DNA from: Moorena sp. SIO3I8
GTDB taxonomy: Bacteria; Cyanobacteriota; Cyanobacteriia; Cyanobacteriales; Coleofasciculaceae
Reading direction: 5' to 3'
Assembly: GCF_010692325.1 (NCBI RefSeq)
Contig: NZ_JAAHHW010000002.1
Coordinates: 107,098 to 143,734, forward strand
DNA length: 36,637 nt
Shown: positions 6,508 to 18,328 of the stretch, piece after piece
Numbering within the stretch: position 1 is the stretch's first letter
How the letters are laid out: each line of letters opens with the position of its first letter
The notes under the pieces: model-generated
Told to the model about the DNA's origin: nothing
Databases searched by the model: none
The model's input: only the letters and a program-made list of their open reading frames with translations
Position numbers and translations under genes: made by a program

Positions 6508-8580
6508 CTAAACCTCCCTCCATCCCTCGATTGTTGCCATCAAAATATTCACCAGAGGATGATCTATAGCTTCCTTGAAGGCTTCCAATCCTCCTGCTTT
6601 CAGGGCATTGATCACCTTATTTTTTAAGGTTGGGTTAGTCTCAATTTGGTCAATAACTTCACCTACAACTGTCATCTTTTCTTTGTTGGTTGTAGTGGGA
6701 TTAGTCTGGGATAGTTGGTTGAGGAGTTGCTGGATTTCTGCTGCTGCTTCGGCTAGGCTTTGTTTTTGTTCTGATGTAAAATTATTCGTGTTAACTTGTC
6801 TAGCATTGTCGTTGAAAACATTAAAGTTATTAGGATTATTAGCTCTGCTTTGATCTATATCTAGATTATCTATATTAAAATTACGTGAATTATCTGACAT
6901 ATCACTCTCGGCTTTAGCTGTATTTGTAAAATTAACTATAGGATTCGATGAATGATTGCTGTTAGAGGCTATAGCAATTTCCTTTAGATCCTGAATATGG
7001 TGAGTTATAGCCTCTTCTCTACCCTCTAGAAAAGCAATTTTTTTCTCTGCTTTTAACCTAACTTCATAAACTTGTAAAAATTGTTTTTCAACGTTACCTT
7101 TATCTGTGGCTTCTGGCACTTCCAAGGTAAGCAAAACATCATTACCTTTATTCTCAATGGCTTGAATCGAATCATGAGTAATTTCAGGATATTCCGCCAT
7201 TATTTTTTGGAAGGCTTGACGAAATGCTTCTCGATTAACACCATTCCGCAGCAGAATCTGCACGGTATTCATAATCTTTTTATAGAGCTTTTCAAAATCC
7301 CCTGGTTGGAAAACCCGATCAGGATCATGGGGACGACGCTCTCGACTTCCTTGAGGATTGGGCTTCTCTAGTAAAAAGACATACTGACAATCAATATTAG
7401 TTAAGGTAGTTGTTGAGTCAATATTCCACGCTTCTAAACAAGCTCCGGTTAAATAAGCATGAGTAAAATCAGTACCAACTGCTTGAGCTTCAGTTAAATT
7501 AGCCCATTCTAAATTAGCCTCCTCTAAGGTAGCTTCGCTAATATCAGCCAGTTTTAGATTAGCCCTTTTTAACTTAGCTCCTTTTAAATTTGCGCCTCTA
7601 AGATTGGCATTACTATAATTAGTATTATAACCATTACCAGTTATCAATAATTCTCTGACAGCAGTATCAGCTAAGATAGTTTTACCTGGTCTAGCTCGGT
7701 CAAGTTTTATGGTATTTCGCCAACAGGTACAGGTGAGATTAGCCTCTCTTAAATTTGTACTTTTGAGGGTAGCTCCCGTAAAATCAGCATCAGTTAGGTT
7801 AGCGTTGTAAAAACTGGTACCTCCTGTAGCAGCAAATGCAATCGCAATATTGCGAATCCAGGCATCTCGGGGGTCTCCTTTTAGAGCACGCCAACCCAGG
7901 TAAGCACCAAGTAATACTAAGACTAAGCCCACAGCTATGGCTACGGCTATGTCTACGGGTCCGCTTAATCTGAAGGCACCCACGACGGCGGTGGCGATGA
8001 TGGTGGCGCTGGTAATGATGGTGGCGATGGCGGTGGCGATGGCGGTGGCGATGATGGTGGCGATGGCGATGATGGTGGCGCTGGCGATAACGCTGGCGAC
8101 GGGTATGGCGCTGGCGACGGGTATGGGGATGGAAAAGACGATTGCAATGACGATTGCGCTGGCGCTGGCGATGACGCTGGCGATGGCGCCTCCTGCTCCG
8201 AGCCCTTGACGCAGGATAACACTATATACTACAATTAGTATAACCAAACCTATCCAACCGAAGACTTGGGATTCTAAGTCGTTGTCAAAGATTAACGCTA
8301 CTACCGCCCCACCAAGTAAGGATACAATTCCTGATAGTCCTGACACTATCCATGAAACTAACAGAAGAACAATTGTCCACCGTTTCTGTAATCCAGCCTT
8401 CGCCTTACAGAACTTAGTTCCGGTTAGAGTAGCATTCTTAAAGTTCGCGCCCCTAATATCAGCTTCACTAAAATCTGCCCCTGAAAGGTCTTTTCCTTGG
8501 AATGACTGACCTCTGAGATTTTCCTTACGGAAATCCCTTTCTCCATTCTTATATCTGCTTATAACTTCTTCAGCTTTCAT
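6508..8580 (-). CDS. Pentapeptide-repeat membrane protein, full-length paralogue
   Basis: 690 residues. A first pentapeptide block (about 18-62; A(N/D)F/L-type five-residue repeats) is followed by roughly 165 residues of hydrophobic sequence (68-234), built largely of Ile/Ala/Thr steps, with a final helix ending GWRALKGDPRDAW. A second pentapeptide block runs about 252-404. The third part begins FQPGDFEKLYKKI (~425) and is a region I recognise from other cyanobacterial pentapeptide proteins. It ends in an Asn-rich linker and a helical tail (EQKQSLAEAAAEIQQLLNQL, then NPTLKNKVINALKAGG) also common in that group and possibly an effector- or signalling-associated module. The function is unknown. 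It is the downstream-most of three tandem paralogues and the only one with the C-terminal half. Confidence 0.85.
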   Translation of the reverse strand: MKAEEVISRYKNGERDFRKENLRGQSFQGKDLSGADFSEADIRGANFKNATLTGTKFCKAKAGLQKRWTIVLLLVSWIVSGLSGIVSLLGGAVVALIFDNDLESQVFGWIGLVILIVVYSVILRQGLGAGGAIASVIASASAIVIAIVFSIPIPVASAIPVASVIASATIIAIATIIATAIATAIATIITSATIIATAVVGAFRLSGPVDIAVAIAVGLVLVLLGAYLGWRALKGDPRDAWIRNIAIAFAATGGTSFYNANLTDADFTGATLKSTNLREANLTCTCWRNTIKLDRARPGKTILADTAVRELLITGNGYNTNYSNANLRGANLKGAKLKRANLKLADISEATLEEANLEWANLTEAQAVGTDFTHAYLTGACLEAWNIDSTTTLTNIDCQYVFLLEKPNPQGSRERRPHDPDRVFQPGDFEKLYKKIMNTVQILLRNGVNREAFRQAFQKIMAEYPEITHDSIQAIENKGNDVLLTLEVPEATDKGNVEKQFLQVYEVRLKAEKKIAFLEGREEAITHHIQDLKEIAIASNSNHSSNPIVNFTNTAKAESDMSDNSRNFNIDNLDIDQSRANNPNNFNVFNDNARQVNTNNFTSEQKQSLAEAAAEIQQLLNQLSQTNPTTTNKEKMTVVGEVIDQIETNPTLKNKVINALKAGGLEAFKEAIDHPLVNILMATIEGWREV
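7975..8200. repeat. Hexamer/nonamer low-complexity DNA inside the pentapeptide gene
   Basis: On the plus strand the DNA is a string of GGCGAT, GGCGGT, GGCGCT and GATGGTG words. Read on the minus strand these encode alternating Ile-Ala, Thr-Ala and Ser-Ala in the membrane region. Because the units are multiples of three, other frames stay open as well, which explains overlapping open frames at 7937-8209 (+) and 7965-8222 (-). Confidence 0.85.
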
Positions 8581-8661
8581 TAGTGATAGTTATATAGTGG
8601 TTTATCAGCTATCAGCTTATGTGCTACGCACACGCTACGCGAACAGTTTTTGAATAAAACA

Positions 8662-8713
8662 GGTAAGCATTGCTTTAATCTCTGTTACGTCAGCTGACTG
8701 CTGAATGCTTACC
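8662..8713. repeat. MITE-like element with GGTAAGCATT inverted ends
   Basis: GGTAAGCATT (8662-8671) and AATGCTTACC (8704-8713) are perfect 10-bp terminal inverted repeats. The interior contains TTTAATCTCTGTTACGTCAG. The outer flank TTTTTGAATAAAACA also accompanies the copies near 16.65 and 20.89 kb. Confidence 0.75.
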
Positions 8714-8751
8714 TTAAGTATTGATTCTTAGAGTATTTTTGCTGATTAATT

Positions 8752-8870
8752 TAGATGCATTTTCCCTGCCTTCGCGATCATAATCGCCAAGGAAAATCAA
8801 AGGAGGGAAGTTTCAATTAGAAACTGATTCAATTTAATCAATTATGATCCTATCACAAACCAGAGCTCTG
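8752..8870 (-). promoter_or_regulatory. Conserved non-coding block, copy 1
   Basis: This block lies in the gap between paralogues 1 and 2 and aligns by eye with 10150-10245 and 11740-11880. Shared words are CC(T)GCCTT..GCGAT, AAGGAAAA and ATTAGAAAC. It contains two small inverted repeats, GCGAT/ATCGC and AGTTTC/GAAACT. It sits upstream of the first paralogue, so a regulatory or leader role is inferred. Direction on the minus strand is assumed from the gene. Confidence 0.45.
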
Positions 8871-9053
8871 AGTATATAACAATTTCTCAGATAAAACACT
8901 TAAAATCCTGAGCGAAAAGACTTAGAACAATCAAAAAATATAGCGCTATACCCATGAAACAGGGAAAGAAAGGGGAATGTGGGAAGTGCTCCCGACTCCC
9001 GACTGAATATTTACCCTTGTTATCAGCTAACAGCTGACGGTTGATAGCTCACC

Positions 9054-9938
9054 TTAGCTCTGTCTAGCCAAGTCAAGTTTACTAGTATTATCCAAACTAG
9101 TACCAGTAAGATTAGCCTTTCTTAAATCTGTACTTTTGAGGGTAGCTCCGGTAAAGTCAGCATTGGTTAGGTCAGCGTTGTAAAAACTAGTACCCCCTGT
9201 AGCCGCAAATGCGATCGCAGTAGTGCGAATCCAGGCATCTCGGGGGTCCCCTTTTAGAGCACGCCAGCCCTGGTAAGCACCAAGTAATACTAAGACTAAG
9301 GCTACAGCTATGGCTACGGCTATGTCTACAGATCCGCTTAATCGGAAGGCGATGGCGCTGGCGCTGGCGCTGGTGATGAAGAGGCTAACGACCCTGGCGC
9401 TGGCCCTGGCGCTGGTCTTGGCGCTGGCGCTGGTGATGGCAACGGCATAGATGCTGGCGATGGCAATCGGGCAGGCGAAGCCGCTGACGCTGCCGCTGTC
9501 GATGGCAACGGTGCTGACGGCACCGAAAGCACAGACGAAACCGAGGACGGCTCCTGCTCCCATACCTTTACGCAGGATAACAATATATACTATAATTACA
9601 CAAACCAAAGCTATCCAGCTGGAGACTTGGTTATCTAAGTTGTCAAAGATAAACGCTACTACCCCCCCACCAAGGAAGGAGAGAATTCCTGATAGTCCTG
9701 ACACTATCCAGGAAACTAACAGAAGAACAGTTACCCACCGTTTTTGTAATCCCGCCTTGGCCTTACAGAAGTTAGTTCCGGTTAGAATAGCATTCTTAAA
9801 GTTGGCTCCCCTAATATCAGCTTCACTAAAATCTGTTCCTGAAAGGTCTTGCCCCTGGAAAGACTGACCTCTGAGATTTACCCTGCGGAAATCCCTTTCT
9901 CCATTCTTATATCTGGTTAGAACTTCATTAGCTTTCAT
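9054..9938 (-). CDS. Pentapeptide-repeat membrane protein, short paralogue 2
   Basis: 294 residues from the chosen start. The order is the same as in its 690-residue neighbour: N-terminal pentapeptide block, long hydrophobic Ala/Ser/Val-rich region, helix ending GWRALKGDPRDAW, and a second short pentapeptide block. It then stops at KLDLARQS, exactly where the long paralogue continues (KLDRARPGKT). I chose the ATG at 9938 (MKANEVL) because it aligns with MKAEEVI of the long copy; an in-frame ATG at 9962 would add eight residues. The membrane part is again encoded by GGCGCT-type hexamers. Function unknown; anchored by several predicted membrane helices. Confidence 0.8.
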   Translation of the reverse strand: MKANEVLTRYKNGERDFRRVNLRGQSFQGQDLSGTDFSEADIRGANFKNAILTGTNFCKAKAGLQKRWVTVLLLVSWIVSGLSGILSFLGGGVVAFIFDNLDNQVSSWIALVCVIIVYIVILRKGMGAGAVLGFVCAFGAVSTVAIDSGSVSGFACPIAIASIYAVAITSASAKTSARASARVVSLFITSASASAIAFRLSGSVDIAVAIAVALVLVLLGAYQGWRALKGDPRDAWIRTTAIAFAATGGTSFYNADLTNADFTGATLKSTDLRKANLTGTSLDNTSKLDLARQS

Positions 9939-9962
9939 AGCTTCCATTAGTGGTAGTAACAT

Positions 9963-10110
9963 AGTAAGCTATCAGTTATCAGCATTCAGCGGTCAGCATT
10001 CAGCATTCAGCATTCAGCATTCAGCATTCAGCTTTTGAATAAAACAAGCTGATAACTAAGAGCTGACGGCTGTTCGCGTAGCGTGAGCTAAAAGCTCACG
10101 GCTGACGGCT
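9963..10110. repeat. Dispersed CATTCAGC / GCTGACGG repeats
   Basis: Five CAGCATT(CAGC) words near 9990-10030 are followed by a TTTTGAATAAAACA flank word and GCTGACGGCT repeats, including a CGCGTAGCGTGAGC hairpin word. The rest of the 9939-10427 gap holds the conserved block listed separately; no gene is supported. Confidence 0.8.
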
Positions 10111-10149
10111 TACCTGAAGTATTAATAATTAGATTATTTGTGCTGATTA

Positions 10150-10250
10150 ATTAATTTAGATGTATTTCCCCTGACTTAGGGATTAGACTCCCTAGGGAAA
10201 ACCGAAGGAACAGAGTCTTGATGATAAACTGGGTTCAGTATATTCACTGA
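10150..10250 (-). promoter_or_regulatory. Conserved non-coding block, copy 2
   Basis: It aligns by eye with blocks upstream of the other two paralogues: GACTTAGGGATTAG, TCCCTAGGGAAAACC, then GAGTCTTGATGATAAACTGG. The inverted repeat GGGA/TCCC replaces the GCGAT/ATCGC pair of copy 1. It lies upstream of short paralogue 2. Confidence 0.45.
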
Positions 10251-10427
10251 ACAATATATCATATTTTCTGATTGAAGCAAATTAAGAAACTTTAAAAGTA
10301 TAGCGCTATATTAATGGAAAGGGAACAGCGGATCTGGGAACAGGGAATAGGGAAAGAACCCTCAGCCGTTGGCCGTAGCAAATAAGCTGACCACTGACCG
10401 CTGACGGCTGACCACTGATAGCTCACC

Positions 10428-11375
10428 TTAGCTCTGTCTAGCCAAGTCAAGTTTACTAGTATTTTCCAAACTAGTACCAGTAAGATTAGCCTGTCTTAAA
10501 TCTGTATTTTTGAGGGTAGCTCCGGTAAAGTCAGCATCGGTTAGGTCAGCGTTGTAAAAGCTAGTACCCCCTGTAGCCGCAAATGCGATCGCATTCGTCC
10601 GAATCCAGGCATGTTTAGGGTCTTCCGTTAGAGCACCCCAGCCCAGGTAAGAACCAAGTAAAGCCAAGAGGAAGGCTAAAGTTCCAGCTAAGGAAGAGGC
10701 GAGCTGGAAGCCCAAGGTTCCGGTTCTGGCAAAGGGCAAGGCTAACTGCTGTATGGCATAGACTCCAGCTACAGCTCCACCTACTGCTACCAACAAGCCT
10801 AAGACTCCAATTAAGACACCATCAAACACTTCCACTGCCGCTCCAGTGGTAGCTACCGCTAGGGCTATGACCAAGGGTAAGCCTAAGGCAAAGGCTAGGG
10901 CGAAGGGGAAGGCTAAGCCAAAGGCTCCAGCGACAGCGACAGCTACGGCAAAGGCAAAGACCAAGCCTACCACTAAAGCTTGGACTGTTTGAATACCTTG
11001 ACCAAGGATAACAAAAAATAAAACAATTATTGCTACCAAGGCTATCCAGGCAAAGATTAGGTTTGAACCCTGGACATAGTTAACAATAAATGCTGCATAA
11101 CTCCCACCATAAAATGAAGCAATTGCTGATAGTATTAACGCTATCGATGAAACCAATAGAATAACAATTGACCAGGATCTTTGTAATCCAGCCTTTGCCT
11201 TACAGAACTTAGTTCCCCTGAGCATCGCATTCTTAAAGTTAGCTCCTCTAAGATCAGCGTCACTAAAATCTGCCCCAGACAGGTTTCTCCCTTGGAATGA
11301 CTGACCCCTGAGATTTACCTTTCGGAAATCCCTTTCTCCTTGGGCATATCTCGCTAGAATTGTTTGAGCTTTCAT
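10428..11375 (-). CDS. Pentapeptide-repeat membrane protein, short paralogue 3
   Basis: 315 residues from Met at 11375 (MKAQTIL), chosen by alignment with the two neighbours; two more residues (ML) are possible. An N-terminal pentapeptide block (NLRGQSFQGRNLSGADFSDA) precedes about 190 residues of hydrophobic sequence rich in Ala, Val, Leu and Gly. Then come LGWGALTEDPKHAWIRT and a second short block ending KLDLARQS, as in paralogue 2. The membrane part is the most diverged of the three and its DNA is less strictly hexameric (AAGGCTA, CAAAGGC words). It is the oldest-looking or fastest-changing copy. Function unknown. Confidence 0.8.
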   Translation of the reverse strand: MKAQTILARYAQGERDFRKVNLRGQSFQGRNLSGADFSDADLRGANFKNAMLRGTKFCKAKAGLQRSWSIVILLVSSIALILSAIASFYGGSYAAFIVNYVQGSNLIFAWIALVAIIVLFFVILGQGIQTVQALVVGLVFAFAVAVAVAGAFGLAFPFALAFALGLPLVIALAVATTGAAVEVFDGVLIGVLGLLVAVGGAVAGVYAIQQLALPFARTGTLGFQLASSLAGTLAFLLALLGSYLGWGALTEDPKHAWIRTNAIAFAATGGTSFYNADLTDADFTGATLKNTDLRQANLTGTSLENTSKLDLARQS

Positions 11376-11412
11376 TAGCATTTTTAGGAGTTATTAATTG
11401 GGTGAGCTATAA

Positions 11413-12470: not shown

Positions 12471-13886
12471 CAATTCACCTCCCGTTATACCCGCAGGGTT
12501 AGCGGGAGGTGAATTGCGGCCAAAAGCTTAGTTCTACTCAAGTAGCATTCCTGGATAGAATTGTGTTATAATTTAAGTATGCTGACACTAACCTACGAGT
12601 ACAAGTTAATTCCCTCTCAACAACAAATTGCCGTAATCGAAGATATCTTGAAGGTTTGTAGAAAGGTTTGGAATTACGCCTTAAGAGAACGAAAAGACTG
12701 GTACAAAAGTAGGAAATGTGCAGTTAATTATTGTTCTTTACAGCAGGAATATATAATTCCAGCAGATGAACCGTATCCCAACTACAAATTACAAGCTGCA
12801 AAATTAACTAAAGCCAAAAAGACCAATCCTGAACTTAAAAGAACAAATGCTCAAGTTTTACAACAAGTCTTAAAGAATTTAGACCGAGCATTTAATAATA
12901 TGAGAGAGCAGAGATATGGTTTTCCTAGATTTAAAAATAAATACCGGATGCGGTCGTTTGTATTCCCTCAGTTTAAAACTAATCCAATGAAAAACGAGTG
13001 GCTCAAGCTACCTCAGATTGGATTAGTTAAGATGAGATTGTCACGACCAATTCCAGATGGATTTAAAATCAAGCAAGTTAGGATAGTTAAACGGGCTAGT
13101 GGTTATTTTGCAATGCTGTCTTTACAAAGTGAAGTCAGTATTCCTGATATACCAGCGTGGGGTCATCCACTGGGGATTGATATTGGGCTAGACAAGTTTT
13201 TAGCAACTTCCGACAATGAGTTAATAGAGCGGCCTAGATTTTTAACCAAGCTGCACGGTAAGCTGAAATTGCTACAACGCAGATTAAAGTTAAAGAAAAA
13301 AGGGTCGGCAAATAGACATAAACTTAATTGTAAAATTGCAAGACTTCATCAAAAAATATCAGATACTCGAAAAGATTTTCACTTTAAGTTAGCACATCAT
13401 CTTTGTGACCAAGCTGGAATGATATTTGTTGTTGGCGAAGCCTGTCCGAAGGACATAGACTTAGATTTTAGAACTTGGGCAAAAGGGATGTTAGGTAAAC
13501 ATACCCTTGACGCAGGTTTTGGTCAGTTCTTCAATATTCTGGTCTGGGTTTGTTGGAAACGAGGAGTATATTTTGGCAAGGTTGATCACAGGTACACTAG
13601 TCAAATTTGTCCAAATTGTGCTACACATACAGGCAAAAAAGATTTATCTGAACGTATCCACTTTTGTCCCGAATGCCATTACGAGATCAACAGAGATGTT
13701 TCAGCTGCTCAAGTGATTTGTCAACGTGGTATCACTGCGGTCGGGCAGATCGTGGGAAAAATTGACTGTGTAGGCGGGCTGTCGGGGGTTGGTAACAACC
13801 TAGATAAGTGCTTAAGAAGCAGTAAACCCAGATCGTGAGGTTTGGGAATCCCCCGTTATAATCTCTGATTTAACGGGGGAGGATGT
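12471..13886 (+). mobile_element. IS605-family TnpB-only element (IS1341-like)
   Basis: The left end is a 14-bp perfect hairpin CAATTCACCTCCCG/CGGGAGGTGAATTG (12471-12484 with 12503-12516). The right end is a 9-bp hairpin CCCCCGTTA/TAACGGGGG (13850-13858 with 13871-13879) followed by AGGATGTC. Both ends share the CCTCCCGTTA/CCCCCGTTA word, as expected for ends recognised by the same TnpA. No tnpA lies inside, so mobility would need one in trans. End points are inferred to within a few bases; the family has no inverted ends or target duplication to check. Confidence 0.75.
12579..13838 (+). CDS. tnpB: TnpB RNA-guided nuclease, with an insertion at the catalytic Glu region
   Basis: 419 residues from ATG 12579; a TTG at 12561 is in frame but lies before a TTATAAT promoter-like word. 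The layout is TnpB: a helix-turn-helix-like N-terminus (YEYKLIPSQQQ), a wedge region, then a RuvC-type nuclease. Asp201 is in GIDIGLD, the zinc finger is C344/C347 with C363/C366, and the last Asp is Asp373 in NRDVSAAQ. The second acidic site, normally a V-E-D/N-L motif, reads IFVVGEACPKDIDLDFRTW (282-300 region). Compared with the expected IFVEDLDFRTW it carries about eight extra residues, and Glu287 is out of the usual place. The rest is intact. It would use the adjacent right-end RNA as guide. Confidence 0.9.
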   Translation: MLTLTYEYKLIPSQQQIAVIEDILKVCRKVWNYALRERKDWYKSRKCAVNYCSLQQEYIIPADEPYPNYKLQAAKLTKAKKTNPELKRTNAQVLQQVLKNLDRAFNNMREQRYGFPRFKNKYRMRSFVFPQFKTNPMKNEWLKLPQIGLVKMRLSRPIPDGFKIKQVRIVKRASGYFAMLSLQSEVSIPDIPAWGHPLGIDIGLDKFLATSDNELIERPRFLTKLHGKLKLLQRRLKLKKKGSANRHKLNCKIARLHQKISDTRKDFHFKLAHHLCDQAGMIFVVGEACPKDIDLDFRTWAKGMLGKHTLDAGFGQFFNILVWVCWKRGVYFGKVDHRYTSQICPNCATHTGKKDLSERIHFCPECHYEINRDVSAAQVICQRGITAVGQIVGKIDCVGGLSGVGNNLDKCLRSSKPRS

Positions 13887-13989: not shown

Positions 13990-14150
13990 AGTAAGAATTC
14001 AGCCGTCAGCCGTCAGCCGTCAGCCGTCAGCCGTTATTAGTCAGCCTTTAGCTGATAGCTGATCACTGATAGCTGATAGCTGATAGCTGATAACTGATCA
14101 CTGATAGCTGACGGCTGATAGCTGATAGCTGATAGCTGAATGCTTACGAT
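13990..14150. repeat. GCCGTCA and GCTGATA dispersed repeats
   Basis: Four to five GCCGTCA copies (13999-14033), then many GCTGATAGCTGATAGCTG words, ending in GCTGAATGCTTACG, a half-end of the GGTAAGCATT element. They fill the 306-bp gap between the TnpB element and the cytochrome gene. No gene is seen there. Confidence 0.85.
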
Positions 14151-14192: not shown

Positions 14193-14837
14193 TTACCAAC
14201 CATTGTCAGCTTGATACAGCACATAATCAGCAAGCGCTGCAATCTGCTCCTCTTTTAGCTTACCTTTGAAGGCTGGCATGGGGGGTTTACCATTGGTGAT
14301 CTGGTAAACGATCTTTTCCTTAGAATACATGCCATACTTCTCAAGGGCATCCTTTTTCAGAGTTTTTTGGGTATTGATTAAATTCTTTCCACCTGCATGA
14401 CAAGCGGCACAGTTGGCTGAGAAGACTTGTGCTGATTTCTTTAGGGCTGCGTCATCTACGGCTACAGCTACTTCGACAGGTTCAGCAGGAGTAGTTTCTT
14501 CCTCTGCTACTGCTTCTGGCTCAGCAGCAGGCTCAGGTGCTACAGCTACTTCTTCTGGTTCAGCGGGAGTAGTTTCTTCCTCTGCTACTACTTCTGGCTC
14601 AGCAGGAGTAGTTTCTTCCTCTGCTACTGCTTCTGGTTCAGCAGGAGTAGTTTCTTCCTCTGCTACTTCGGTGGGTTCCGCTGGGGATTCCACTGTTTCA
14701 ACTGCAGCAGTTGGGGCAGGTGTGGTTTCTGGAGGAACAGTAGCTGTAGTTGCGCTACCGCAACCATAGGTAAAGGTCAACACACAGACCGTTACCACTA
14801 AGAGTGATAGTAGCTTTTTCAATGCAATTTGTCTCAT
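14193..14837 (-). CDS. petJ: Cytochrome c6 with lipoprotein-like leader and long acidic linker
   Basis: 214 residues, about twice the length of usual pre-cytochrome c6. The C-terminal ~85 residues are a clear cytochrome c6: heme motif C143-A-A-C146-H147 ([10 protein letters not shown]), KDALEKYGM and the axial Met187 in KPPMPAFKG, ending [11 protein letters not shown]. It would carry electrons from cytochrome b6f to photosystem I or oxidase. The N-terminus has KK, a 14-residue hydrophobic core and Cys26 in TYGC; Tyr at -2 is unusual, so lipidation is likely but not certain. Residues about 45-128 are 13-residue repeats of the [13 protein letters not shown] type. The leader and linker closely match the plastocyanin gene 300 bp upstream on the same strand. 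Both would sit tethered to the membrane on the lumen or periplasm side. Confidence 0.88.
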
Positions 14838-14904
14838 GAGATTAAAAAAAACAAGTTCGCTAGTCCATACAGGATTGTCAGATCATGTATTTCTTTCCGT
14901 CAAA

Positions 14905-14917
14905 AGACAAGCTGTCA
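14905..14917 (-). promoter_or_regulatory. Operator-like palindrome upstream of cytochrome c6 gene
   Basis: AGACAAGCTGTCA contains the inverted repeat GACA-AGC-TGTC, 68-80 bases before the petJ start. The same GACAAGCTGTC is found upstream of the plastocyanin gene. The GACA/TGTC arms recall BlaI/CopY-type operators, a family known to control petE/petJ in some cyanobacteria; that link is inference. Confidence 0.5.
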
Positions 14918-14949
14918 AATTTATTGGTTTCTTCCTGACTTGAAACGCA

Positions 14950-14976
14950 GTAAGGGCGCACACCGTGCGCCCTTAC
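14950..14976. repeat. 12-bp-stem hairpin between petE and petJ
   Basis: GTAAGGGCGCAC (14950-14961) and GTGCGCCCTTAC (14965-14976) form a perfect stem with a 3-base loop. It lies 163 bases beyond the petE stop and upstream of the petJ operator, so it could separate the two transcripts. No T-run follows, and it may be a dispersed hairpin element. Confidence 0.65.
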
Positions 14977-15138
14977 GTCATACCCTAGGGTTATAGTTGC
15001 TGGGTAAGTGCTGATTGCAATTCACTGAACTACCACGATTTGCGATCGCTTAAGTCTTAGAATAGTTAATCTTGTGAAACCTCTGTGGTTTTCACATTCC
15101 AAATAAAGTCTTGATCAACAGCCCTAGTCCTAGTGCTA

Positions 15139-15792
15139 CTATGATGCAGCTTCAACATTGATTTTGCCTACCATGCCAGCACCACGGTGAGGGGCACAGT
15201 AGTAGGAGTATTTACCAGGCTCATCAAATGTAGATGTATAGGAAGAACCCGCAGACATCAACATGTTTTTATGACTCAGTGATTCGTTGCCCTCAACAAT
15301 AACATTATGAGGACCAATTTTGTTCATCACCCACTTGACGGTGTCCCCCGGTTTGATGGTAAGAACACTTGGGTCAAATTTTAGTTGGCCATTGTCTGTA
15401 CCCATTTTTACAGTGTAAGTTTCTGGAGCAGCTGCGGCAGCAGGCTCAGGTGCTACAGCCACCTCAGTGGCTTCGGCTGGGGCGGGTTCTTCTTCAGCCA
15501 CCTCGGTGGGTTCGGCTGGAGTGGGTTCTTCTTCAGCGACCTCGGTGGGTTCGGCTGGGGCGGGTTCTTCTTCAGCGACCTCGGTGGGTTCGGCTGGGGC
15601 GGGTTCTTCTTCAGCCACCTCAGGGACTTCCGCTGGGGCTTCCGCCTCTGGGGCAACTTCAGCAGCTGGGGCAGGTGTGGTTTCTGGAGGAACAGTAGCT
15701 GTAGTTGGGCCGCCGCAACCATAGGTAAAGGTTAAGATACAGACCGTTACCACTAGGAGTGATAGTAGCTTTTTCAATGCTATGTTTTTCAT
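15139..15792 (-). CDS. petE: Plastocyanin with lipoprotein-like leader and long acidic linker
   Basis: 217 residues; ordinary cyanobacterial pre-plastocyanin has about 130. The C-terminal ~95 residues (from ETYTVKMG) are plastocyanin with all four copper ligands: His162 (GPHNVIV), Cys199, His202 and Met207 in the signature [16 protein letters not shown]. The N-terminal leader ([12 protein letters not shown], then TFTYGCG; Cys26) is almost the same as in the cytochrome c6 gene downstream. Residues about 45-120 are 13-residue repeats of [13 protein letters not shown]. The mature domain is thus joined by a flexible acidic Pro/Ala arm to a probable lipid anchor. Role: electron carrier between cytochrome b6f and photosystem I. 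The start is immediately downstream of a 7-bp hairpin and promoter-proximal palindrome. Confidence 0.9.
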
Positions 15793-15799
15793 AAAAAAA

Positions 15800-15858
15800 T
15801 TGAACCATGACTGTCAACGGTTCAATTATATGACAAGCTGTCATCTTAAAAGCTGTCA
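15800..15858 (-). promoter_or_regulatory. petE promoter with palindromic operator and 5' hairpin
   Basis: On the minus strand TGACAGCTTGTCA (15831-15843) abuts a TATAAT -10 word (15825-15830), so a bound repressor would block the polymerase. A second TTTGACAGCTT lies at about 15848-15858. Between the -10 and the start, TTGAACC/GGTTCAA (15800-15806 with 15819-15825) can pair. The palindrome core is identical to the site upstream of petJ. Confidence 0.55.
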
Positions 15859-16086: not shown

Positions 16087-16527
16087 GTGGACATCATTAA
16101 GACACCTTATTTACCGGCACAAGGATTCTTTTTACTTGCACAAGGATTCTTTTTACTTGCACAAGGATTTTTTTTACCAGCACAAGGATTGCCTTGCTCT
16201 GTAGTACTCTCACCAGGAGCAGTATTGGTTGTGGGAGTTTCTCCGATTCACAACCATGGTACATGGGGAGTAGTAGCGGTGATCAGTGGCCAGGAAAAAA
16301 ACACCTTTTGGCGGCGTACTGATGACCCAGATTTTTGCGATCGCATCGAACAAGTTGGGTAAAAAATCCTATTCCCTGGAGATATTATTAGTTTTACCTC
16401 TGATGGGATCCATAGTGTGGAAGCAATGGGAGATGAACCAACAATTACCTTTAATATTTATGGGGAAACAAACTACGACCAGCGATTTGAGTTTGATCCA
16501 CTAACCCATTCTGCAAAGACCTTTTGA
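16087..16527 (+). pseudogene. Cupin / cysteine-dioxygenase-like pseudogene
   Basis: One frame holds a recognisable double-stranded beta-helix protein. The first metal-site motif is SPIHNHGTWGVVAVISGQEK, the later part is KILFPGDIISFTSDGIHSVE, and the end is TNYDQRFEFDPLTHSAKTF. A single TAA at 16360-16362 (after IEQVG, where homologues I recall have Glu) breaks it. The N-terminus is replaced by a short tandem repeat (three or four GCACAAGGATT copies giving PAQGFFLLAQGFFL). Its expected first ~100 residues are missing. The family is remembered as predicted metal-dependent cupins near cysteine dioxygenase. Both halves of the metal site survive, so decay looks recent. Confidence 0.7.
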
Positions 16528-17014: not shown

Positions 17015-18328
17015 TTAAGTCTCTAGCTCCTCTAAGGATTTCGGTACACCAGCAGTCAATACTTCATTCCCTGACTCAGTCACTAACACATCATCCTCAA
17101 TCCGAATCCCAATCCCGCGCCAGCGCTGATCAATAGCTGGCTGACCTTCCACAGGCTCAATATCAGGACCAATATAAAGTCCTGGTTCCACTGTTACTAC
17201 ATTACCGGGCTGAAAAATCTGCCAGTTTTCCCCCTGTTTGTAGCCTCCACTGTCATGGACATCCAACCCGAGCCAGTGACCAGTGCGGTGCATATATATA
17301 TGTTTATATTTCTCTTCTTTAATAATTTCCTCACTATCACCAGCCAGGAGTCCCAAATCGATTAACCCTTCCACCAGGATTTTCACAGCGGTGTCATGAA
17401 ATTGATTAAAGGGATTCCCTGGTTTAACTTGTGCGATCGCATTCAACTGTGCCTTCAAGACCAACTCATACAGAATTTTCTGCTCTGGGGTAAACTTACC
17501 ACCCACTGGAAATGTCCGAGTAATATCAGCGTTATAATACCCATAAGAACAACCAGCATCAATCAGTAGTAAATCCCCATCTTGCATCTGTCGATTGTTC
17601 TCGGTATAGTGTAGAACGCAGCTATTAGCCCCAGATGCTACTATGCTCGGATATGCCGGTCCGATGGCACCTCGTCGCCGAAAATCATGTTCTAGCTCTG
17701 CCTGCACTTCATATTCATAACGTCCAGGTTGAGTAAATGCTCTAGCATGGTTATGGGCATCCACAGAGATTTCCACAGCTTGACGCATCAACTTCAATTC
17801 CCTAGTACTCTTAACCCGGCGCATCCCATAGAGAATTAAGTTAGTGGATTCGAGAGCCATCGGTCCGGTTCCGTTCTTGGGATAAAGAGCCATCAACCTT
17901 TGCCAGTGTTTCAGGATGGTATCATTGAAAGCTTTATCCCGTCCCAAGTGGTAATAAATTCGATCGGCCTTTTTTAAATACTGAGGTAACTTCTCATCCA
18001 ACTCAGTAATCGGATAGGTCTCATCAGCACCAAATAGTTCTTTTGCTGCTTCGACACCTGTCCGATAGCCTGTCCATACTTCTTTCTTTGGTTCTTTCGG
18101 TTGCACAAACAGGACAAATCGGTGTTCTTCGTGATGGGGCGCTAGTACAACTACGGCCTCTGGTTCATTGAAACCTGTCAAGTAAAAAAAATCGCTATCC
18201 TGTCGGAAATTGTATTCCACAGTATTATGCATAATGGCAACCGGGGCGCTCCGAAAGATAGCGGTCCCGTTGCCAATCTTACTCATCAACTGTTCACGAC
18301 GCTCTTTATATTCGGTTTGTGGAATCAT
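17015..18328 (-). CDS. pepP: Xaa-Pro aminopeptidase (M24B)
   Basis: 437 residues, full length for PepP. It removes an N-terminal residue that precedes proline. An N-terminal aminopeptidase-P domain (about 1-165, with FYLTGFNEPEAV) precedes the pita-bread catalytic domain. All five dimetal ligands are visible: Asp257 and Asp268 (LLIDAGCSYGYYNADITRTF), His351 (RTGHWLG), Glu381 (VTVEPGLY) and Glu411 (IRIEDDVLVT). His358 in the DVHD motif is also present. No signal peptide, so it is cytoplasmic. Monocistronic, with a 310-bp gap upstream of the next gene's stop. Confidence 0.95.
   Translation of the reverse strand: MIPQTEYKERREQLMSKIGNGTAIFRSAPVAIMHNTVEYNFRQDSDFFYLTGFNEPEAVVVLAPHHEEHRFVLFVQPKEPKKEVWTGYRTGVEAAKELFGADETYPITELDEKLPQYLKKADRIYYHLGRDKAFNDTILKHWQRLMALYPKNGTGPMALESTNLILYGMRRVKSTRELKLMRQAVEISVDAHNHARAFTQPGRYEYEVQAELEHDFRRRGAIGPAYPSIVASGANSCVLHYTENNRQMQDGDLLLIDAGCSYGYYNADITRTFPVGGKFTPEQKILYELVLKAQLNAIAQVKPGNPFNQFHDTAVKILVEGLIDLGLLAGDSEEIIKEEKYKHIYMHRTGHWLGLDVHDSGGYKQGENWQIFQPGNVVTVEPGLYIGPDIEPVEGQPAIDQRWRGIGIRIEDDVLVTESGNEVLTAGVPKSLEELET

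Follow-up and report, generated by a model that had tools for sequence, protein, structure and literature searches.

The window analysed here is a 36,637 nt stretch of Moorena sp. SIO3I8 (contig NZ_JAAHHW010000002.1 of assembly GCF_010692325.1, positions 107,098–143,734 of the forward strand), taken from a source genome of 7.99 Mb with 510 contigs and 99.5% completeness (G000 below, G001, G002 and G003 being further Moorena genomes). Its minus strand carries a pair of genes for a plastocyanin (petE) and a cytochrome c6 (petJ), both of which display an unusual layout of leader, long acidic arm and C-terminal redox domain (Table 1). An initial sequence-only reading had proposed such a pair with a common leader; both open reading frames (ORFs) were recovered, and codons 1–44 of the two genes shared 91% DNA identity.

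Table 1. Window coordinates of the petE–petJ pair, its protein segments, repeats and putative operators
Feature	Position	Strand	Description
petE, putatively tethered plastocyanin	15139–15792	minus	217 aa: leader 1–26, acidic repeat arm ~27–124, plastocyanin domain ~125–217
petJ, putatively tethered cytochrome c6	14193–14837	minus	214 aa: leader 1–26, acidic repeat arm ~27–127, cytochrome c6 domain ~128–214
petE leader	15715–15792	minus	codons 1–26 to Cys26 (TYGC), putative lipid-anchor signal
petJ leader	14760–14837	minus	codons 1–26 to Cys26 (TYGC)
petE arm tandem repeats	15456–15639	minus	39 bp (13 residues), 4.7 copies, 91% match
petJ arm tandem repeats	14467–14669	minus	39 bp (13 residues), 5.2 copies, 78% match
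Palindrome GACAAGCTGTC	15832–15842		putative copper-switch operator, 40 bp upstream of petE start
Palindrome GACAAGCTGTC	14906–14916		putative copper-switch operator, 69 bp upstream of petJ start

The claim that both redox domains are intact was confirmed by profile scores and by the invariance of the copper and heme ligands. The petE head scored 83.7 bits against PF00127 (cut-off 21.2) and 120.1 bits against the TIGR02656 plastocyanin profile (cut-off 87.85), its best PDB match was 1bxu (E = 4e-35), and H162, C199, H202 and M207, the type I set of His, Cys, His and Met, were invariant across the 16 rows of the alignment. For the petJ head, the score against PF13442 was 53.2 bits (cut-off 27) with 2v08 as the best PDB match, and the heme residues C143, C146, H147 and M187 (CxxCH plus axial Met) were invariant across 12 rows. 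Equally invariant was Q179, the Gln of an IVYQ motif, whose position was placed by motif and not by structure. A Gln at the marker position separates c6 from the low-potential forms c6A, c6B and c6C (PMC8358224), and Q179 looks like this residue marking a high-potential c6. The ordinary plastocyanin format, a soluble mature protein of ~100 residues after an AxA signal, was not matched by petE, with its 98-residue arm and a leader lacking AxA.

The 26-residue leaders of petE and petJ are near-identical and both end in TYGC, with Cys26 placed correctly by the earlier reading; the motif was kept in 5 of 5 Moorena petE and 4 of 4 petJ copies. A search of the source genome for the petE leader and arm returned petE and petJ only and no third protein. 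Both leaders conform to a relaxed PROSITE-type lipobox rule (Cys at position 15–35, K/R within the first seven residues), which is broader than the canonical lipobox [LVI][ASTVI][GAS]C (PMC8038367). Applied to 89 distinct plastocyanins, the relaxed rule was positive for 14, all of them armed, and the 75 negatives included one armed protein, L162, with a start outside those tried. Nine of 65 petJ proteins were positive, comprising six armed and three unarmed ones (L124 and L127 via spurious upstream starts, L096 in an ordinary signal); the petJ of G003, interrupted by a run of N, counted among the 56 negatives. As a background rate, the rule picked out only 4 of the 220 ORFs with ≥150 aa in a 400-kb portion of G002.

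When the leader was scored against three hand-picked sets, the mean was 38.6 for ordinary PetJ signals (n = 11), 25.5 for PetE signals (n = 11) and 26.4 for other lipoprotein leaders (n = 9), and none of 500 segment shuffles reached the PetJ-signal score, so that the anchor was probably derived from a PetJ signal peptide. The most hydrophobic 12 leader residues had a grand average of hydropathy (GRAVY) of 3.09, compared to 2.12 for the ordinary petJ of the source genome. Hydrophobic helical H-regions track with thylakoid-lumen delivery in three species, a trend which is clear for signal peptidase I (SPase I) signals, weaker for lipoproteins and absent in Gloeobacter (PMC12341915). By this analogy, the hydrophobicity of the leader is suggestive of thylakoid-lumen delivery; as a proof of location it was dropped, and it is treated as supportive only.

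The domain split of this analysis gave arms of 98 (petE) and 101 (petJ) residues, longer than the 70–80 residues first proposed, while their acidic character and 13-residue repeats stood. Both are rich in Glu, Ala, Pro and Thr, with net charges of −28 and −29, respectively, and contain arrays of 39 bp. Self-identity of the petE arm was 0.62 at lag 13, a value reached at any lag of 3–30 by none of 2000 shuffles; for the petJ arm it peaked at 0.57, at lag 26, compared to 0.53 at lag 13 (0 of 2000 shuffles). Arm length varies within the genus: the petE arm of G001 has 72 residues, two repeats fewer, and the petJ arm of G002 has 114, one more. AlphaFold2 models, built from 16 (petE) and 12 (petJ) aligned sequences, predicted an N-terminal helix at residues 4–24 in petE and 2–24 in petJ, arms devoid of secondary structure (block predicted local distance difference test, pLDDT, 51–66 and 45–62, respectively) and high-confidence heads (pLDDT 89–97), with overall means of 76.2 and 72.7.

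The petE–petJ pair was present in the same order in all four Moorena genomes searched (G000–G003), a 100-N gap interrupting the petJ arm in G003. An additional contig from SIO3H5 includes petE and breaks off 141 bases further on, and the petE of the window is 97% identical over its full length to that of M. bouillonii PNG. In three of the four genomes (G000, G001 and G002) the armed petE was the only PF00127 plastocyanin, and G003 has an ordinary plastocyanin beside an ordinary petJ. All four encode an ordinary petJ that is extended at its C-terminus by 47–55 residues, and G001–G003 have a further ordinary petJ. A check of the source genome for ordinary copies, suggested by the sequence-only reading, thus succeeded for petJ and failed for petE as far as PF00127 is concerned. 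The extension of the ordinary petJ (L090, L091, L086 and L088) ends in a basic-aromatic KPKKR[SP]FWR... motif and could itself bind membranes.

Regulation of the pair may be linked to copper supply. The palindrome GACA-N3-TGTC occurs twice in the window, each time upstream of one gene of the pair (shuffle mean 0.49). It also precedes both genes at the loci of G001, G002 and G003, petE in SIO3H5 and, among ordinary petE genes, those of G003 and two genomes of the family f13 discussed below. Elsewhere its density was four copies in 400 kb of G002, and 8 of the 20 loci scanned lack it. Genes for a BlaI-family protein and an M56-like protease adjoin the ordinary petJ of the source genome (G000:C24) and resemble PetR/PetP; the protease assignment is weak, at 23.6 bits against PF05569 (under the cut-off of 31) and 21.4 bits against PF01435 (over the cut-off of 20.3). 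A BlaI-family regulator with an M56-type (BlaR1-type) protease is the make-up of the PetR/PetP copper switch (PMC7896320, a commentary). Given a palindrome before each gene and these PetR/PetP-like genes, petE and petJ are likely a copper-switched pair, with the palindromes as putative operators, and the earlier notion of exchangeable heads gains support.

Homologous fusions, whose presence in other cyanobacteria had been proposed as a check, were found in Gloeobacterales and in f13. A profile built from 10 armed plastocyanins, and hence bound to match these, was run against 388 genomes of the class. In at least 10 genomes, namely the source genome, G158 and eight Gloeobacterales, it matched a lipoprotein-type protein as far as the arm or leader. 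Part-way matches in G471 and at a second place in G439 were rejected, the signals there being ordinary ones preceded by an open frame. A targeted search revealed an armed lipobox plastocyanin in eight of nine Gloeobacterales genomes, most of which have a second, ordinary plastocyanin, and none was found in the ninth, G426. These proteins (L159–L162, L164, L165, L168 and L169) have Thr/Pro/Ala-rich arms, of 43 and 59 residues in two of them, and the net charge was −4 and −1 in the two of eight measured; their leaders contain the canonical lipobox in 8 of 8 cases. Candidatus Cyanaurora vandensis, a member of this order, has two cytochrome c550-like frames, both with lipobox-like leaders (L138:425–1492). 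Gloeobacterales lack thylakoids (PMC13237429).

Besides Moorena, arms occur in one more lineage that has thylakoids, the family f13. Three of its nine genomes (G399, G158 and G420) encode an armed and an ordinary plastocyanin in tandem, and the same three carry an armed c6 elsewhere in the genome. We take this family to be probably halophilic. The canonical lipobox is present in one of three armed f13 petE and two of three armed petJ leaders, and the arms in G399 span 75 (petE) and 40 (petJ) residues. In the three genomes the armed lipoprotein-type c6 directly follows a DoxX-type gene (L142:782–1776, L143 and L150; DoxX identity by Pfam at L142 only). The ordinary plastocyanin adjoining the armed one in G158 is open in its second part only, an 84-residue frame (L069:1761–2012), and is perhaps broken. 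Gloeobacterales and f13 armed plastocyanins resemble Moorena petE in their lipoprotein-type leader, low-complexity arm and plastocyanin head, and differ in that their leaders are distinct, none is common to petE and petJ, arms are shorter where measured and a soluble plastocyanin is mostly present too. Long-frame plastocyanins of G137, G269, G344, G405, G155 and G323 and long-frame petJ proteins of G318, G162, G312, G310 and G169 proved to have upstream in-frame extensions and no arm.

Armed plastocyanins of Moorena formed one clade in the petE tree (support 100/99), and those of f13 another (100/98), nested inside a starred group of f13 plastocyanins; a joint clade was weakly rejected (p = 0.034 in the approximately unbiased, AU, test). 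Both the tree and this test speak against a single origin of all armed plastocyanins. In the petJ tree, armed Moorena and f13 proteins likewise fell into two separate clades, each with 100/100 support, and a joint clade was not rejected (p = 0.176). On these grounds, separate origins of armed petE in Moorena and f13 are likely, and armed petJ may have arisen either once or separately. The petE leader is constrained, with at most one nonsynonymous versus up to five synonymous differences per pair of sequences.

Taken together, it seems fairly probable that Moorena petE and petJ are lipoprotein-anchored carriers similar to cytochrome cy, operating between cytochrome b6f and photosystem I (PSI) or an oxidase. 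Membrane tethering, as first suggested, is supported indirectly by the co-occurrence of arm and leader Cys, by the same design in two other lineages and by the structural models; lipidation, thylakoid location, partners, kinetics and regulation we infer. The leader would route the chain through Sec, and Cys26 would probably be diacylated to give an anchored N-terminus or, failing that, an uncleaved leader helix would serve as the anchor. The disordered acidic repeat arm of ~100 residues would let the head swing between b6f and either PSI or a terminal oxidase while staying at the membrane surface, with copper supply selecting the copper or heme head via a PetR/PetP-type switch on matching operators.

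The likeness to cytochrome cy noted by the sequence-only reading holds for the layout of anchor, linker and head. In Rhodobacter capsulatus this carrier consists of a 30-residue helix, a long, structurally unresolved flexible linker of 69 residues and a soluble 100-residue head, and linker length affects which partner is served: 69 residues are needed for fast donation to the reaction centre, and ~45 serve respiration (PMC7876108). At 98 and 101 predicted-unstructured residues, the Moorena arms exceed this range of ~45–69 residues for a cytochrome cy-like carrier and, by analogy, could reach from b6f to PSI, and arms of 40–60 residues, as in f13 c6 and the Gloeobacterales plastocyanins measured, may fit respiration. 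Unlike the Moorena pair, cytochrome cy is a proteobacterial cytochrome c with a transmembrane helix anchor and a single head, and its partners are bc1 with either the cbb3 oxidase or the photosynthetic reaction centre.

A broader proposition is held only tentatively, with doubt somewhat outweighing confidence: that the plastocyanin branch of Moorena runs wholly on a tethered carrier, the sole plastocyanin and a matching c6 being anchored through ~100-residue arms and swapped according to copper, and that tethered plastocyanins arose more than once and were kept in Gloeobacterales. If true, free diffusion across the lumen would be dispensable for the carrier, and in thylakoid-less Gloeobacterales anchoring would prevent its loss into the periplasm.

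Several observations weigh against the interpretation as b6f-to-PSI lipoprotein carriers. The lipoprotein-like leader originally claimed agrees with the relaxed rule and not with the canonical lipobox, from which T-Y-G-C departs at −3 and −2, and an SPase I cut after TYG is possible. Three armed f13 c6 leaders scored 35–38 against the Moorena leader, near the PetJ-signal mean. The petJ protein is under the NF045930 PetJ cut-off (125.8 versus 135 bits, E = 7e-37); positions 26–110 of the 110 in this model were matched and 1–25 were unmatched, the latter being by our reading its signal-peptide part. Both heads are under weak constraint, with ratios of nonsynonymous to synonymous substitution (dN/dS) of 0.35–0.75 for petE (nine pairs, the tenth being identical) and 0.49–1.06 for petJ (six pairs), compared to 0.14–0.17 for the neighbouring PepP gene, 0.14–0.60 for ordinary petJ and 0.79–1.16 for the second ordinary petJ; such fast heads could reflect an accessory role, or tethering that relaxes the need for tight docking. 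As for the switch, the exact palindrome was absent from the ordinary-petJ loci beside PetR (L090 in G000, L091 in G001), and a 13-base form allowing two mismatches gave three matches in the window, a number reached by 10 of 100 shuffles.

The strongest competing explanation, which we nevertheless regard as unlikely, is that the armed proteins are cell-envelope lipoproteins for respiration or another periplasmic redox task and not PSI donors. Retention of an armed lipoprotein petE in thylakoid-less Gloeobacterales, mostly beside a soluble plastocyanin, would fit such a role, as would the DoxX gene adjoining the f13 armed c6, the fast evolution of the heads and the sufficiency of ~45 linker residues for respiration in cytochrome cy (PMC7876108). 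The lack of a second PF00127 plastocyanin in three of four Moorena genomes argues the other way, and so do the resemblance of the leader to PetJ signals, its hydrophobic H-region, which follows the trend of thylakoid-lumen signals (PMC12341915), and arms well beyond the 69 residues that cytochrome cy requires for fast reaction-centre donation.

It is also unlikely, and a little more so, that the leader stays uncleaved as a transmembrane anchor in the manner of cytochrome cy, which is held by a helix (PMC7876108), with Cys26 unlipidated. The predicted helix at 4–24, the GRAVY of 3.09 and the non-canonical TYGC all suit this alternative, but the hydrophobic stretch is short (~17 residues), the Cys is kept in nine of nine Moorena copies (five petE, four petJ) and armed plastocyanins of two other lineages conform to the relaxed lipobox rule, those of Gloeobacterales being canonical. 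Precedents for a lipid anchor at the lumenal face of cyanobacterial thylakoids are CyanoQ, CyanoP and Psb27 (PMC8038367; for CyanoQ also PMC5033237) and Ycf48, which is lipidated at the non-canonical CVSC and whose C26A form behaved as before, leading its authors to infer low specificity (PMC8038367). These proteins, one of them with a non-canonical lipobox, are assembly factors or extrinsic subunits and not mobile carriers.

More improbable still is cleavage of the leader by SPase I to yield soluble armed proteins, in which the arm would tune charge or crowding in a saline or otherwise special lumen. As read from the residues, the T-Y-G that precedes Cys26 might suit an SPase I site, and the probable halophily of f13 would go with a saline lumen. 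Yet the AxA site known from the ordinary copies of petJ and petE is missing, the 14 plastocyanins positive by the relaxed rule are without exception armed, with no ordinary plastocyanin among them, and the arms of Gloeobacterales are only slightly charged (−4 and −1 in the two measured). That the genes are recent, decaying duplicates devoid of function is very improbable: dN/dS approaches 1 in some petJ pairs, but all frames are open bar the assembly gap in G003, ligands are invariant, the petE leader is constrained, repeats comprise whole codons (39 bp) and the palindromes are kept. A chance low-complexity ORF was ruled out by the conserved domains, ligands and syntenic copies.

Plastocyanin and cytochrome c6 are textbook examples of freely diffusing carriers, and their range in the narrow lumen is an old question. 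Ordinary cyanobacterial PetE and PetJ share redox domains, ligands and probable partners with the Moorena pair, and those examined differ from it in that they lack an arm and their signals look cleavable, most of them with AxA. Heliobacterial cytochrome c553 is lipid-anchored and serves a type I reaction centre; heliobacteria, in contrast to Moorena, are anoxygenic and are not known to possess thylakoids or a copper counterpart to c553. Among the blue copper carriers of Chloroflexus, AuraA is water-soluble and AuraB membrane-tethered (PMC3150298). Unlike the Moorena pair, these auracyanins A and B are proposed to serve alternative complex III. We know of no heme twin with the same leader for auracyanins.

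Phrase searches of the open-licence literature found no paper on a plastocyanin or c6 that is tethered, bound or anchored to the membrane, or anchored by a lipid. Among the papers listed by wider searches, none describes such a carrier in its title or the opening of its abstract, and earlier mention elsewhere is possible. A published survey of the c6 family dropped sequences of >200 residues (PMC8358224), and the putatively tethered petJ, at 214 residues, would therefore have escaped it. If the proposed anchoring holds, a tethered design of purple bacteria, heliobacteria and Chloroflexus would now extend to oxygenic phototrophs, where one type of anchor carries either of the two interchangeable heads, and natural arms varying in 13-residue steps would offer a ready test of how tether length relates to range and rate.

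A PepP-type aminopeptidase gene (17015–18328) lies upstream of the minus-strand genes petE and petJ. PepP was also found upstream of petE at L074 (G001), L034/L075 (G002) and L035 (SIO3H5); at the G003 locus it was not visible because the contig stops ~1.2 kb beyond petE. The pair is adjoined by an IS605-type OrfB/TnpB gene (12561–13838), a weaker relative of which (35% identity) lies near the pair at L074. A promoter scan was uninformative (2 sites versus 3.7 expected by chance), and terminator-like sites numbered 9 versus 2.3 expected, several of which fell within the repeat arms and so were not used. Two 7-bp tandem arrays (TCAGCCG ×5 and TAGCTGA ×13) are situated just downstream of petJ (13999–14139), and a 21-bp array at 16110–16190. 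Further along, three consecutive similar genes with hydrophobic middle parts occupy 6508–11381 on the minus strand; the first one tested was identified by Pfam as a pentapeptide-repeat protein, and the other two look alike.

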